This document shows, piece by piece, positions 12,009 to 18,911 of a stretch of 64,000 bases of DNA. The stretch is from Haloprofundus halobius (lineage in GTDB: Archaea > Halobacteriota > Halobacteria > Halobacteriales > Haloferacaceae): assembly GCF_020097835.1 (NCBI RefSeq), contig NZ_CP083666.1, forward strand, positions 2,480,001 to 2,544,000. Reading direction: 5' to 3'. The notes under the pieces were generated by a model. That model searched no databases, was not told the DNA's origin, and saw nothing but the letters and a program-made list of their open reading frames with translations. Every line of letters starts with the position of its first letter. Positions within the stretch are counted from its first letter, which is position 1. The position numbers and the translations under genes were made by a program.

Positions 12009-12674
12009 ATGAGTGTTATCGCGGAGTTTACCGTTGACGCGGACGATTTCGCGCTCCATCATGCTCTTACCACCGCGCCGGACATGATAGTCGAGATCGA
12101 GCGTGTGGTCGCCACGATGGAGGACCGGATTATGCCATACTTCTGGGTTAGCGGTGGCGACCAGTCAGTGTTCGAAACCGCATTCAACGAAGACTCGTCC
12201 GTCACGAACGTCCAGAAGGTTGATGAGATCGACGAAGCGGTTCTCTACCGGGCCGAGTGGACGGAAAACATCGAAACTATCGTCTACGCGTACATCAAAA
12301 TCGGCGCGACGATTCTACAGGCGACTGGTCGGGATGAATACTGGGAACTCCAGATGCGCTTCGACAACCGTGAGGAAGTCTCTCAGTTCCAAACGTACTG
12401 TACCGAACACGAGATCTCGTTCGAACTCTCCCAGATTTATCACCAAGAGGAACCGATGGCGAGCGCCCAATACGGATTAACGTCGAAACAGCGTCAGACG
12501 TTGGTAACCGCGCTCGAAGCCGGCTATTACGATATTCCACAAGCGACCACGATGACCGAGTTAGCGAGTAACGTTGGGATCTCTCAGTCAGCATTCTCGA
12601 AGCGGCTTCACCACGGCCACAAGAATCTCATCACGAACGCGCTGACCGTCAGTCATCCGGACGACGAATCGTAG
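12009..12674 (+). CDS. Bat-type HTH_10 transcriptional regulator, copy A
   Basis: 221-residue protein with an N-terminal bacterio-opsin-activator-type sensing region (residues 1-150; opening MSVIAEFTVDADDFALHHAL). A C-terminal HTH_10 domain (about 155-213) follows, with LTSKQRQTLVTALEAGYYDIPQATTMTELASNVGISQSAFSKRLHHG as its core pattern. There is no PAS or GAF domain, so the N-terminal region must sense the signal or mediate dimerisation. Its DNA is less GC-rich than its neighbours. Followed after 78 bp by a DUF7344 gene, an arrangement repeated at 17.8-18.9 kb by a paralogous pair. Confidence 0.88.
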   Translation: MSVIAEFTVDADDFALHHALTTAPDMIVEIERVVATMEDRIMPYFWVSGGDQSVFETAFNEDSSVTNVQKVDEIDEAVLYRAEWTENIETIVYAYIKIGATILQATGRDEYWELQMRFDNREEVSQFQTYCTEHEISFELSQIYHQEEPMASAQYGLTSKQRQTLVTALEAGYYDIPQATTMTELASNVGISQSAFSKRLHHGHKNLITNALTVSHPDDES

Positions 12675-12702
12675 AACCCGTTCTCCCGAGAGGATAAAGG
12701 AG

Positions 12703-12712
12703 TTATATATAT
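12703..12712 (+). promoter_or_regulatory. TATA box of the DUF7344 gene, with a leader hairpin
   Basis: ttatatatat is a strong TATA run 41-50 nt before the ATG at 12753, implying a leader of about 18 nt. A short inverted repeat cgctct-tccgg-agagcg follows at about 12721-12737 around the expected start site, so this gene can be expressed separately from the upstream HTH_10 gene. Confidence 0.5.
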
Positions 12713-12752
12713 CACCCGTCCGCTCTTCCGGAGAGCGAACATCCGTTTTGAT

Positions 12753-13091
12753 ATGAGCTCTCAATTTCAGAATCATTCAAACTGGCCACAAATTCTCTCG
12801 GCGCTTTCGGACCAACAGTGTCGTCGTCTCCTCGGCTATCTCCACGAGAAGGACGGCGACATCGTGTCGCTCGGTGAGCTCACAGAGTATCTCGCCGGCG
12901 GCGAAGCCGACTCGATAGAAGAGTTCGGCACCGACAACGTAGCGATCTCGTTGCATCATATCCATCTCCCGAAACTGGCGAATATCGGCCTCGTCGAGTA
13001 CGACACGCGAAATCGGACGGTTCGGTATCGGGGCCACGAGGAGGTAGAACGTGCATTTGACTGTTTAGCACACGAAGAATGGGTGAGATAG
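12753..13091 (+). CDS. DUF7344 winged-helix-like protein, copy A
   Basis: 112 residues. The order of helices (LSDQQCRRLLGYLHEKDGDIVSLGELTEYL, then ISLHHIHLPKLANIGLVEYDTRNRTVRYRG) is that of a winged helix: two helices, a recognition helix with HHIHLPKL, and a beta hairpin wing. The family is confined to haloarchaea and presumed DNA-binding, with no known targets. It follows the HTH_10 regulator and has a paralog at 18534-18911 in an identical setting. Confidence 0.82.
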   Translation: MSSQFQNHSNWPQILSALSDQQCRRLLGYLHEKDGDIVSLGELTEYLAGGEADSIEEFGTDNVAISLHHIHLPKLANIGLVEYDTRNRTVRYRGHEEVERAFDCLAHEEWVR

Positions 13092-14516: not shown

Positions 14517-14526
14517 CTTTATCATA
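14517..14526 (+). promoter_or_regulatory. TATA-like box of the DUF7504-CHAT operon
   Basis: ctttatcata lies 24-33 nt before the ATG at 14550. It is the only AT-rich run in the divergent region and fits a leaderless transcript for the two-gene operon. Confidence 0.55.
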
Positions 14527-14549
14527 TACGTTATCCAACAGAACGGAAA

Positions 14550-15224
14550 ATGCGTGTCGAGGGTCGAAGTCGTGGGGAGGAGCCGGTAGACCCCCTTCGC
14601 GGGGAGTTGATGCGCTTGAAAGAGCGAGGCTGCAACCTGCTCGTCACCGGTGCGGTGTCCGAACCGGTGACGGCGCGAGCGACCCAACGGCTGCTCGGCT
14701 CACCGGTCGAAGAGCGAAAACGACTGGTCACGCTCACCGACACGCCGACGAGAGATGTCGACTCCCGACTTCCGATCGGCGTCTCCGCCGACGACACGGG
14801 CGTCAGAGTCGTCGAGCGACGACGCATCGAGCGGTCTGCCGCCGAGGCCGCCGGCCGAGAGAGCGCCTCCGACACCGGACTCAGGTGTCTCGAAGGCGAG
14901 ATTTCGCGCGCTGTCGCCTCGCTCGACGGCGGTCACGGGTTCAGTCCGGGCGAGCTCCGTCTCTCACTCGATTCCATCGGTCCCCTGGTGGAGGTGTACA
15001 CCGTGTCTCGGGTCCGCGAGTTCCTCAGACGCGTCTGCGACACCGTCGAAGATAGCAACGGGATGGGCCACTATCACCTGCCGCTCTCGGACGATAGCCG
15101 ACGGGTTCGCGAGTTCGAGGGCGTGTTCGACGCCCGCATCGAGCTTCGACAGCGCGAGCCGTTCGGGCCGGAACAGCGGTGGCACGTGCCGGGCTACGGC
15201 ACCACGGGGTGGATACAGATATGA
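14550..15224 (+). CDS. DUF7504 family protein, KaiC-like without P-loop
   Basis: 224-residue soluble protein. After an acidic start comes GCNLLVTGAVSEPVTARATQRLLGS (about 23-47), where a KaiC/RecA-like domain would have its Walker A loop, but no GxxxxGKS/T is present. Then come a VTLTD strand and a second sheet-forming half ending GFDARIELRQREP-like strands (here VFDARIELRQ). I recognise the haloarchaeal DUF7504 family, which looks like a degenerate KaiC relative with no known biochemistry. It starts the operon; the CHAT protease GTG lies 10 bp after its stop, so the two are almost certainly co-transcribed. Confidence 0.8.
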   Translation: MRVEGRSRGEEPVDPLRGELMRLKERGCNLLVTGAVSEPVTARATQRLLGSPVEERKRLVTLTDTPTRDVDSRLPIGVSADDTGVRVVERRRIERSAAEAAGRESASDTGLRCLEGEISRAVASLDGGHGFSPGELRLSLDSIGPLVEVYTVSRVREFLRRVCDTVEDSNGMGHYHLPLSDDSRRVREFEGVFDARIELRQREPFGPEQRWHVPGYGTTGWIQI

Positions 15225-15234
15225 GGGGGTTCGC

Positions 15235-17355
15235 GTGACCACGCTGTACCACGAGGAGTTGGCGAACCGCGAGGGCATCCGTCTCGTCGACAGCATCGAG
15301 AACGCACAGTTCGAGTTGTACACCCCCGAACCGGTCACGGCCACGGAGGCGAGTTCGTCGGCGTTCTACTTTCCGGTCGATTTCGCGGTCGAACTGCGCA
15401 CGTCGTCGCTGAAACTGCCGAAACTGACCGGCGCTATCGTCCGGACGCAGGACGGCCGAACGGTCACGCAGTCGATGAACCGCCAAGGCGTCTCCCTCGA
15501 CGACGACGCGTACGACATCGAGGTGACGACGGCACCGATGAAACTGTTCGTCGTCGTCGACGCCGCCGCCTCGATACGCTACGGCGAGCGGAGCACGACG
15601 TTCGAGTTCGACGGGCCGACGCGCGTCCACGTCGGCGCGCGGTCGTTCCACGAGCAACCCGCGGGAACCGTCGTGACCCCCGACGACCCGGAGGCGGCGA
15701 TGCGCGCCGTCTCGCTTCTCGGCTCGGCGCTGAAGACGACGACGCCCGAGCGGTCGTTCCCGACGCTCCGCGGGCACCCGCCGCTCGTCGAACGCGGCGA
15801 GACGTTCGACGCGCCCGACCACTTGCAACCGCCGGAGACGGGCGTGACGCTCGTGCTCCCGCCCGAACGCTCGGCGGTGTACGCCAGCGCGCCGCTGGCG
15901 TACTACCTCGGTGCGACGGTCGTTCCGGGCGCGGAGGCGCGCCTCGAACTCGCCGGACGGACGTTCCCGTTCGCCGACGGCGGCGACGTAGAGCGGGGGT
16001 TGGGCCGAACGCTTCGACAGGTGTTCTTCCTCGACTGCCTCACGCGCACCGAGGGGTACTATCCGGTCGACCTCCACGAGCGACACGCCGTCGAAGCGGC
16101 GTTCGACGCGGAGTTCGCGGCGCTGTACGACCTGCCGCTCGACGAGCAACTCGCCGAGTATCTCGCGATCCCGTACGGCGACATCGAACCGCACCTGCCG
16201 GCGTGGAACCTCACGACCGACGTTCGGCCGACCGCCGAGAACGTCGAGATGCTCCCGTTCGTCGCCAACGATCTCTCGCTGGTCCGCTGTCCGGACCGAC
16301 TGTCGCTCACGCCGCCGGACCCCGAACCGAAGGCGGTGACGGATTTCTTCCGGCGAACCGCCCCGGCGTCCGCGACAGCCGAGACGTTCGTCCGCGGTGC
16401 GTCCGACACCGGAGAGACCGCGGAGACCGAGGAGATCGTTCACCCGCGACCCGCCGAGACCGTCGAACACGCGTGGGTCGGCGAGGGGTTCCCGCTGGGC
16501 GCGAGCAAGGCGACGGCGGCGTCGTATCGCCGCCGCCTCGAACGCGACGTCGCCGACCGGACGAGCATCGACATCACGGTCGTCTGCAACGACGAACAGA
16601 TGCGCGAGGAGGGTGTCGTCGCCGAACTGTACGGACTCCGTGACCTGCTGCAGTTCGAGATAGACATCCGATACGACCTGGCCTGCGAGGAACTGGCCGA
16701 CCTGTTCTCGCGGCCGACGAACTTCCTGCACTACGTCGGTCACGTCGACCACCGCGGCATGCAGTGTACCCACGGCTTCCTCGACGCGACGGAACTCGAC
16801 GACGTGGCCGTCGAGTCGTTCCTGCTCAACGCCTGTAGTTCGTACAAGCAGGGCGAGGCGCTCGTCGAACGGGGAAGCTACGGCGGCGTCGTGACGCTTG
16901 CGGACGTGGCGAACACGACGGCGACGAAACTGGGGCGGACGCTCGCACGGCTGCTGAACTGCGGCTTTACGCTCCGGTCGGCGTTGACCATCGCACAGCG
17001 CGAAGTGTTTACCGGGAATCGGTACATCGTCCTCGGCGACGGCGGGTTGTCGCTGTGTCAGAACGAAAGCGGAGTTCCGGGTGTTTTAGAAATCGAGCCT
17101 AGGGAAGAGGGCATCTTCGAGATCGAACTGGAATACTATCCAGTAAAATCCTACGACCTCGGGAGCCTGGTCAAACCGCTCTTAGATGTTGTAGACAGAC
17201 ACCACCTGGCGACGGGAACGGTCGGGAAATTCGAGATAGGTGCGAAAGAACTGAAGGAGTTCCTCGAATTAGAAAGGGCACCTGTGAAAATGGACGGTTC
17301 GCTCCATTGGAGCGATGAGCTTAGCGCTGAGTTTTCGAGTCGTCCCGGTCTGTGA
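15235..17355 (+). CDS. CHAT-domain caspase-like protease
   Basis: 706 residues, GTG start 10 bp after the DUF7504 stop. Residues about 1-350 are beta-rich with no recognised domain. A CHAT (caspase-like, clan CD) peptidase domain covers about 455-600. The His motif FLHYVGHVDHRG contains His503. The Cys motif LLNACSSYKQG contains Cys534. They are followed by GSYGGVVTLADVANTTATKLG and CGFTLRSALTIAQREVF, the usual CHAT helices. The catalytic dyad is intact. From about residue 617 (base 17085) codon use changes sharply (TTA, AGG, AGA, GTA, CCA appear), indicating a C-terminal tail of different origin. CHAT proteases elsewhere act in programmed death, gasdermin cleavage or signalling; the substrate here is unknown. 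Confidence 0.85.
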   Translation: MTTLYHEELANREGIRLVDSIENAQFELYTPEPVTATEASSSAFYFPVDFAVELRTSSLKLPKLTGAIVRTQDGRTVTQSMNRQGVSLDDDAYDIEVTTAPMKLFVVVDAAASIRYGERSTTFEFDGPTRVHVGARSFHEQPAGTVVTPDDPEAAMRAVSLLGSALKTTTPERSFPTLRGHPPLVERGETFDAPDHLQPPETGVTLVLPPERSAVYASAPLAYYLGATVVPGAEARLELAGRTFPFADGGDVERGLGRTLRQVFFLDCLTRTEGYYPVDLHERHAVEAAFDAEFAALYDLPLDEQLAEYLAIPYGDIEPHLPAWNLTTDVRPTAENVEMLPFVANDLSLVRCPDRLSLTPPDPEPKAVTDFFRRTAPASATAETFVRGASDTGETAETEEIVHPRPAETVEHAWVGEGFPLGASKATAASYRRRLERDVADRTSIDITVVCNDEQMREEGVVAELYGLRDLLQFEIDIRYDLACEELADLFSRPTNFLHYVGHVDHRGMQCTHGFLDATELDDVAVESFLLNACSSYKQGEALVERGSYGGVVTLADVANTTATKLGRTLARLLNCGFTLRSALTIAQREVFTGNRYIVLGDGGLSLCQNESGVPGVLEIEPREEGIFEIELEYYPVKSYDLGSLVKPLLDVVDRHHLATGTVGKFEIGAKELKEFLELERAPVKMDGSLHWSDELSAEFSSRPGL

Positions 17356-17490
17356 TTACGGTCCGTTGGTGCAGAACGCGTTGTTCGCCGCCACGGCCCC
17401 CGCCTGCGAGAGCAGGAGCGTCATCGTGAACAGGACGCCGATCATTCGTGGGTGGTCGCGCAGGTAACTTGCGATTGGGTGTTCGCTCAT
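17356..17490 (-). CDS. DUF7503 membrane microprotein
   Basis: 44-residue product: MSEHPIASYLRDHPRMIGV, then a hydrophobic segment LFTMTLLLSQAGAVAA (about 20-36) and the tail NNAFCTNGP. It matches the haloarchaeal DUF7503 pattern (charged start with HPRMIGVLF, one membrane helix, QAG, short polar end). Its stop codon directly abuts the TGA of the CHAT gene, so the two genes are convergent with no spacer. A TATA-like run at 17515-17524 gives a leaderless transcript. Too short for automatic ORF calling at 60 residues. Function unknown. Confidence 0.82.
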   Translation of the reverse strand: MSEHPIASYLRDHPRMIGVLFTMTLLLSQAGAVAANNAFCTNGP

Positions 17491-17514
17491 GTACATCAAC
17501 CACGAGACGCGCTG

Positions 17515-17524
17515 CTATAATTTA
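17515..17524 (-). promoter_or_regulatory. TATA-like box of DUF7503
   Basis: On the minus strand taaattatag lies 25-34 nt before the ATG at 17490. It is part of a very AT-rich block (17510-17570) unlike the rest of the window, which may also promote rightward transcription of the HTH_10 gene at 17772. Confidence 0.55.
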
Positions 17525-17771
17525 ATTAACTAAATTTATCTTATAAATTTATAGTGCTAAAAAAGATAACACTTTGGGAGCGAGTGTAACGGCTCGAACG
17601 AGGAAAAGATATCCCTTGAGTGGGCGCCTCCAGTACTGGTCCCCGTCGGGTGACAAACTGCGACTACGGCGTACACCGACGCGAAGGGATGGGTCGTCCA
17701 GTCGCCGCGGTGAGAACGAGAGCCAAACACCTCGGCTCTTCACTTTTCCCGCTCGGTCCGGTACCCTTCCT

Positions 17772-18434
17772 ATGGGAATCGTCGCCGAGTTCTCGATACC
17801 GGCCGAGTCGTTCGCGTTCTCCCGGGCATTCGACCGCCTCCCCGACCTCGTCGTCGAGGTCGACCGCCTCGCGACACACAGCCGCGAGTGGGTGCTCCCG
17901 TTTCTCTGGATGTCCACCGAGAACGGGTCGGCGGAGACGGTCCGAGAGGCGGTCGACGACGACCCGACGGTGGAGGAACTCACCGTCGTCGACGAGTGGG
18001 AGTCGGTCGCGCTCTACAACGTCCACTGGAGCGAGGCGGTCCAACAGTTGATCGACGAGATTATCGACCAACACGGCATCGTCCTCTCGGCGACCGCGCA
18101 CGACCGCCGGTGGTCGCTCACGCTGCGGTTCGTCAACCGGTCGATGCTCGACGACTTCCAGACGTACTTCGACGAACACGGCCAGGGGTTCGAGCTGGAA
18201 CGCATCCACGAGATGCGAGGACCCAAACAGCGCGAGTTCGGCCTGACGCCGCCGCAGCGAGAGACGCTCGTCGCCGCCTTCGAGATGGGTTACTTCACCG
18301 TTCCGCGGGAGACGAACATCACCGAACTGGCCGACGAACTCGGCGTCTCGCCGAACGCCGTCTCCCAGCGGTTGCGACGCGCGACCGCGAGCCTCGTGGA
18401 GAACGCGCTCCTGGTCGATCGCAGGATACGGTGA
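17772..18434 (+). CDS. Bat-type HTH_10 transcriptional regulator, copy B
   Basis: 220-residue paralog of the protein encoded at 12009-12674: it opens MGIVAEFSIPAESFAFSRAFDRLPDLVVEVDRL against MSVIAEFTVDADDFALHHAL in copy A. It ends in the same HTH_10 (LTPPQRETLVAAFEMGYFTVPRETNITELADELGVSPNAVSQRLRR, about 160-205). The start at 17772 is used because homology begins there; about 200 nt of leader separate it from the AT-rich block. A DUF7344 gene follows 99 bp later. It lies just beyond the CHAT/DUF7503 genes and is a candidate regulator of them. Confidence 0.9.
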   Translation: MGIVAEFSIPAESFAFSRAFDRLPDLVVEVDRLATHSREWVLPFLWMSTENGSAETVREAVDDDPTVEELTVVDEWESVALYNVHWSEAVQQLIDEIIDQHGIVLSATAHDRRWSLTLRFVNRSMLDDFQTYFDEHGQGFELERIHEMRGPKQREFGLTPPQRETLVAAFEMGYFTVPRETNITELADELGVSPNAVSQRLRRATASLVENALLVDRRIR

Positions 18435-18533
18435 GGGTGACGGCACTACTGACGATGCGCGTAACCGAATCCGTCGGCGACCTTCAGAGTTGAGGGTGTG
18501 TCCTCATGGGAGTTGAACACTTGAGTGACCTGT

Positions 18534-18911
18534 ATGAACGAATCGACGGTGGCGGATCACTCCGAGAAGACCGGACTCGACGCGGACGGTTGGAACGAAC
18601 TGTTCGACGTGCTCGTCGCCGACTGTCGCCGGAAGGCGTTCCTCGAACTCGCCGACTTCGGAGCGCCGTTGTCGGTCGACGAACTGGCACAGAGGGTCTT
18701 CGAGCGGCGTGACTGGGACGCCAACGGGGGCCAGACGCAGGGCGACGAGTCGCCGACCGAGCGCATCCAGCGGCTCCGAATCGAACTCTACCACGTTCAC
18801 CTGCCGAAGTTGGCAGCCGCGAATCTCGTCACGTTCGACCACGAGACGGGACGAGTCTCGCCGGGCGAGCGAACGGACATCGGCGTCGACTTCCTCGACG
18901 AACTCCTGTAG
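18534..18911 (+). CDS. DUF7344 winged-helix-like protein, copy B
   Basis: 125-residue paralog of the product of 12753-13091. Helical half: LFDVLVADCRRKAFLELADFGAPLSVDELAQRVF; recognition half: RIELYHVHLPKLAAANLVTFDHETGRVSPGE. The conserved HVHLPKL block aligns with HIHLPKL of copy A. The ATG at 18534 is preferred over an upstream GTG at 18525. It carries an acidic insertion (NGGQTQGDESPTE) before the recognition helix. Presumed DNA-binding partner of the upstream HTH_10 regulator; targets unknown. Confidence 0.85.
   Translation: MNESTVADHSEKTGLDADGWNELFDVLVADCRRKAFLELADFGAPLSVDELAQRVFERRDWDANGGQTQGDESPTERIQRLRIELYHVHLPKLAAANLVTFDHETGRVSPGERTDIGVDFLDELL

Follow-up and report, generated by a model that had tools for sequence, protein, structure and literature searches.

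A CHAT-type protease and a convergently encoded Gly-Pro-ended peptide form a conserved unit in Halobacteria that may serve in signalling

The Rgg-SHP and RRNPP systems of Gram-positive bacteria place a large cytosolic receptor beside a very small hydrophobic precursor whose C-terminal peptide varies, and the precursors of yeast alpha-factor and of neuropeptides carry tandem identical short units split by a processing-like motif. Among proteases, the SAVED-CHAT, Craspase TPR-CHAT and gasdermin-linked CHAT proteins share a caspase-hemoglobinase fold and a His/Cys dyad with the haloarchaeal protein modelled here. Haloferax volcanii has a strong, Asp-specific caspase-4-like activity to which no gene is assigned; its extracts cleave LEVD and VEID substrates (PMC3615174). 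Quorum sensing is also reported for this species, with a disk-forming signal that is a proteinase K-resistant small molecule (PMC12240190). Our literature searches found no paper on the cassette considered below, nothing on DUF7503, DUF7504, DUF7344 or a CHAT domain in haloarchaea or Haloferax, and turned up no peptide-based communication in Archaea.

The cassette lies in a stretch of 64,000 nucleotides from Haloprofundus halobius, called the window, and comprises the following features:

14550 to 15224, plus strand: DUF7504 gene, 224 aa (PF24336, E 1.5e-48, 166 bits), an accessory member
15235 to 17355, plus strand: gene for a predicted CHAT-type (clan CD) cysteine protease, GTG start, 706 aa
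16741 to 16743, plus strand: codon of catalytic His503 (HYVGH), assigned from sequence, invariant in 150/150
16834 to 16836, plus strand: codon of catalytic Cys534 (LLNACSS), assigned from sequence, invariant in 150/150
17356 to 17490, minus strand: DUF7503 gene, 44 aa (PF24335, E 2.4e-22)
17359 to 17385, minus strand: C-terminal 9-residue tail NNAFCTNGP with a Gly-Pro end, the proposed mature peptide
17491 to 17560, minus strand: AT-rich region upstream of DUF7503 with a TATA-like motif, likely its own promoter

An earlier note on this DNA had described DUF7504 and CHAT genes 10 bp apart, with DUF7503 tail to tail at zero gap; the coordinates and the Pfam matches (78.7 bits for DUF7503, against a gathering cut-off of 27) confirm this, the CHAT stop codon directly abutting that of DUF7503. 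A TATA-like motif precedes 61 of 116 DUF7503 genes, compared with 63 of 795 other genes, and from its upstream sequence DUF7503 likely has a promoter of its own. Two apparently paralogous pairs of BAT/HTH_10 and DUF7344 genes flank the cassette on both sides (window 12009-13091 and 17754-18911); we rejected these families as cassette members, since only 4 and 6 of 80 loci have them nearby.

The window protease itself has no significant sequence match in Pfam, NCBIfam, PADLOC or the PDB. We assign it to CHAT because 17 of 64 relatives match PF12770, the Pfam CHAT family, at E<0.1 (best 4e-5; the window protein gives no such match), because the RefSeq names of two relatives point to CHAT, and because of what its AlphaFold model (mean pLDDT 88) resembles: separase, gingipain R, SAVED-CHAT, Craspase and caspases, caspase-3 included, with separase 5fby/5fc3 the best match. 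By predicted fold and dyad, then, it is a clan CD cysteine protease of the caspase-hemoglobinase fold. A conserved N-terminal module of about 420 residues, of unknown fold, precedes the CHAT domain (about residues 430 to 605) and a C-terminal beta part. The earlier note placed the catalytic pair correctly; His503 and Cys534, in HxxGH and xxxAC motifs, were invariant in 110 homologs and subsequently in 150 of 150. The protease domain is of an already known kind, and the novelty lies in the unit of protease plus GP peptide.

This pairing is evident in our main locus set (L002 to L092 plus the window), which was chosen almost entirely by CHAT similarity alone and holds 94 CHAT genes, with gene calls made in this analysis. 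A small convergent peptide gene abuts 91 of the 94. The partner is DUF7503 in 85 cases, a repeat precursor in 2 and another GP-ended peptide in 4; in two of the three remaining loci (L058 and L077), DUF7503 lies about 1 to 1.4 kb away. The gap between protease and peptide genes has a median of 0 bp and spans -23 to more than 200 bp, with a 4-base overlap in 26 pairs. Convergence within 30 bp is seen for 74 of the 91 pairs, compared with 58 of 679 other adjacent gene pairs, an excess far above what chance would give. Of the loci selected through DUF7503, all 17 have CHAT next to it. Frequencies were taken from the first locus set only, since loci L111 to L180 were chosen partly because the genome lacked DUF7503 or carried a divergent homolog.

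The same association is seen genome by genome. In a class sample of 194 genomes, one per species (our phylum sample was built likewise), 179 carry CHAT homologs, all 194 carry DUF7504 and 164 carry DUF7503; 164 genomes have both CHAT and DUF7503, 15 have CHAT alone, none has DUF7503 alone and 15 have neither (Fisher p 1.7e-14). DUF7503 is thus never found without CHAT, as all 15 genomes lacking CHAT also lack DUF7503. In Haloprofundus halobius there are four CHAT paralogs; a separate convergent peptide accompanies each of them, and the four tails differ. The unit is present in five named Haloferax species, and the H. volcanii control genome has a DUF7503 match. CHAT plus a convergent small peptide is the invariant unit across Halobacteria. 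Outside the class, CHAT homologs were found in one family of the phylum (L161 to L164), where no conserved convergent GP peptide accompanies them, and the GP peptide is also missing beside some sister-clade CHAT genes. Four loci of genus g42 (L112 to L115) have an intact CHAT dyad and no recognisable peptide partner, and L169 and L170 hold tandem arrays of two or three CHAT genes on one strand, where no GP peptide turned up. In the genome to which the window belongs, a TbsP-like transcription regulator (L036:3732-4550) adjoins a CHAT gene of the sister clade; genes resembling it stand near CHAT in L054 and L140.

The earlier note had proposed to check whether the three families co-occur and stay adjacent. 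This held for CHAT and its peptide; DUF7504 is beside them in only about half of the loci. Of 65 loci with complete flanks, 35 have it within 1.5 kb of CHAT, a count that is likely a lower bound because the DUF7504 profile built in this analysis is probably less sensitive than that of Pfam. We therefore rejected the three-gene cassette as the conserved unit. Where present, DUF7504 is mostly upstream on the same strand, at times beyond the peptide gene, and several loci have HalOD1-DUF7504 fusions beside CHAT. The description of DUF7504 as KaiC-like without a P-loop proved sound: KaiC 7s65 is the best Foldseek match of its model (pLDDT 92; E 6.5e-9), and no Walker A P-loop (GK[ST]) is found in the alignment consensus. 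DUF7504 is best read as an accessory regulator; it may act as an adaptor linking the unit to haloarchaeal signalling.

The peptide itself combines a nearly fixed leader with a tail that differs strongly between close species. DUF7503 begins with a short N-terminal segment followed by a hydrophobic one (conserved leader YLxxHPRMIGVLFTxLLLLSQAGxVAA), after which comes the variable tail. Gly-Pro is exactly C-terminal in 107 of 117 DUF7503 loci, as compared with only 4 of 880 background proteins. In 91 of these, the tenth residue from the end is Ala, and the positions between this Ala and the GP have entropies of 2.4 to 3.3 bits. We found no positive selection on the tail, with dN/dS at about 0.2 to 0.7. 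Convergent peptides of the sister clade of CHAT share little beyond a hydrophobic stretch, often after HPR, and, in most, GP at or near the end. At the DNA level, codons -34 to -23 (HPRMIGVLFT) show low synonymous divergence, and divergence is raised at the junction of the two convergent genes, at their 3′ ends (for example, window 17300-17490).

A second form of the peptide gene indicates which part of it matters. In all six genomes of one genus, the gene in this position has no hydrophobic segment and instead carries 4 to 13 tandem units with the consensus [M/Y/F][T/N]ADGN[GS][GS]GISGP, such as MTADGNGSGISGP and YTADGNSGGISGP. CHAT proteins of three of these genomes nest within a clade (support 1.0) whose other members have single-copy peptides with the tails GNHVGISGP, GNNVGISGP or GNHTGIYGP, which makes the repeat units look like tail copies. 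In a string, the stretch that follows Asp is 9 residues long, just like the DUF7503 tail that follows Ala -10; Asp takes the place of this Ala, and Y, F, M, L or V occupies P4 in nearly every case. When the 12-residue unit was compared pairwise within three precursors, leaving out the first copy, there were 0 non-synonymous differences and 49, 379 and 122 synonymous ones, and the copies are therefore held by selection on the peptide. Since the hydrophobic part was lost while the tail was multiplied under purifying selection, it is the tail that is the functional unit, and not a pore. A type I toxin-antitoxin system was rejected on related grounds: the hydrophobic part is not conserved, being absent from the six genomes where the tail has multiplied.

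The best reading of these observations is that the dedicated peptide is a ligand and/or a substrate of the neighbouring protease; the earlier note's suggestion that DUF7503 might be a substrate holds up to this extent, such a small protein being a plausible substrate or ligand. Our preferred version, favoured with somewhat less than even confidence, is that the tail is a ligand of the adjacent CHAT and switches its protease activity. The core would be a CHAT protease in the cytosol together with its peptide, the two genes meeting tail to tail. In most genomes the precursor is single-copy and carries a hydrophobic leader, and in one genus it is a soluble string of many copies. The product that functions would be the short tail of about 9 residues with its Gly-Pro end, probably freed by proteolysis, which in the leader form would cut at the Ala -10 junction and in the string form at Asp-Gly. 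We infer that the released tail binds and activates the adjoining CHAT specifically, much as a pheromone acts on its receptor, with each paralogous protease having a tail of its own. We favour a ligand partly because the N-terminal module is large and conserved and because Y276, S174, F175 and T145, which lie beside invariant motifs of that module, show the strongest covariation with tail position -4. This covariation counts as suggestive only, as the null was inflated (leader columns also reached z 6.8) and the motifs were selected once the hits were known. As for topology, the AxA pattern at the junction of leader and tail suggests a signal peptidase cut; against this stand the slightly acidic N-flank of DUF7503 (mean charge -0.53), different from a typical signal peptide n-region, and the string form. 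Nor does ordinary secretion seem general, as the locus shows neither export nor import machinery and the strings lack a hydrophobic leader.

The strongest rival to the ligand reading makes CHAT a maturation protease, which would cut the precursor and free a GP peptide that acts elsewhere, as a cell-cell signal, an antimicrobial or a modified peptide. We consider this rather unlikely. The invariant dyad and the adjacency of protease and precursor genes argue for it, and so does the string form, in which a cut after Asp (TAD/GN) would fall at a site of caspase type whose P4 is mostly hydrophobic; H. volcanii extracts cleave LEVD and VEID substrates (PMC3615174). However, the likely cut in the common form (AxA) is a site of the signal peptidase type, a tail outside the cell would be out of reach for a cytosolic CHAT, and the large conserved N-terminal module is left unexplained. 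With regard to a RiPP pathway, the surveyed upstream neighbours include no widely shared gene except DUF7504, and CHAT itself could be the processing enzyme. The peptide might instead stay inside the cell as an inhibitor or pseudosubstrate that keeps the protease off, like securin on separase, the multi-copy form supplying more inhibitor and the leader form tethering the complex to the membrane. Separases are indeed the closest folds, there is one peptide per protease, and an intracellular tail would fit both forms, given the charge data. We nevertheless think it unlikely: the peptide gene is not cotranscribed with CHAT, because it is convergent and likely has its own promoter, and the tail varies strongly among close species, next to a leader that hardly changes.

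The remaining alternatives fit less well. The earlier note had considered a pore-former, and in most genomes the product is about 44 aa long and has a single hydrophobic segment, as would suit a small membrane toxin under protease control. Yet one genus dispenses with that segment while keeping 4 to 13 tail copies under purifying selection, and the GP end is common to several clades, so that we dropped the pore-former and regard a toxin of this kind as improbable. Least probable of all, and very much so, is that antisense effects or transcription termination account for the retention of the convergent overlap, with the peptide of little weight as a protein. The 4-base overlap of stop codons in 26 loci and the low synonymous change in part of the leader are consistent with this, but the wide spread of gaps between the two genes and the strong protein-level constraint on GP and repeat units are not.

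A defence role, also raised by the earlier note, is not supported, and we rejected both defence and a mobile element. The cassette had no match in phage sequences or IMG/VR, PADLOC found no family in it, and no gasdermin or other PADLOC component was found at the locus. Only 1 of 48 upstream neighbours matched a PADLOC model; the genes upstream are mostly housekeeping or regulatory ones, and the distribution is near-universal. CHAT homologs do occur on 25 haloarchaeal plasmid records.

How, then, does the unit compare with what has been described? Set against SAVED-CHAT, Craspase and gasdermin-linked CHAT, the haloarchaeal protease has a different N-terminal module, and its partner is a short GP-ended peptide: we found no SAVED or gasdermin partner, and neither the protein nor the most frequent upstream families contain a TPR domain or CRISPR effector. 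Separase and securin offer a dedicated small partner and the fold match to 5fby/5fc3, although the partner here has 44 aa, is of membrane or repeat type and is no securin. The H. volcanii caspase-like activity (PMC3615174) is an Asp-specific activity in another haloarchaeon, a species with a DUF7503 match; an Asp specificity of CHAT is putative. Because the unit is found in most haloarchaeal genomes sampled, Haloferax included, both this activity and archaeal peptide signalling can be tested in a laboratory model. The portions available to us of two Haloferax reports (PMC12240190 and PMC10869688) yielded no link between the CHAT/DUF7503 system and either the quorum signal or DdfA/RdfA, and we rejected both as candidates; since that signal is a proteinase K-resistant small molecule, we claim no identity with it (PMC12240190). 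HalOD1 is found not only in the DUF7504 fusions seen here but also in DdfA, which belongs to the Haloferax shape pathway (PMC10869688).

The likeness to Rgg-SHP and RRNPP is one of working principle, with a large cytosolic protein beside a tiny hydrophobic precursor of a variable C-terminal peptide. Here, the putative receptor is a protease rather than a TPR transcription regulator (Pfam and fold matches revealed neither the TPR repeats nor the DNA-binding domain of RRNPP receptors in the CHAT protein), the system is archaeal, and no importer is known. A tentative and rather doubtful proposition is that this is the first gene-encoded peptide signalling system of Archaea, in which short GP-ended pheromones, made by haloarchaea from single- or multi-copy precursors, are sensed by a caspase-like protease or control it. 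The strings match alpha-factor and neuropeptide precursors in their tandem-unit layout, albeit with no visible secretion signal, and it is because these strings of tail copies resemble the precursors of hormone-like peptides that the pair may be an undescribed protease-and-peptide signalling unit.
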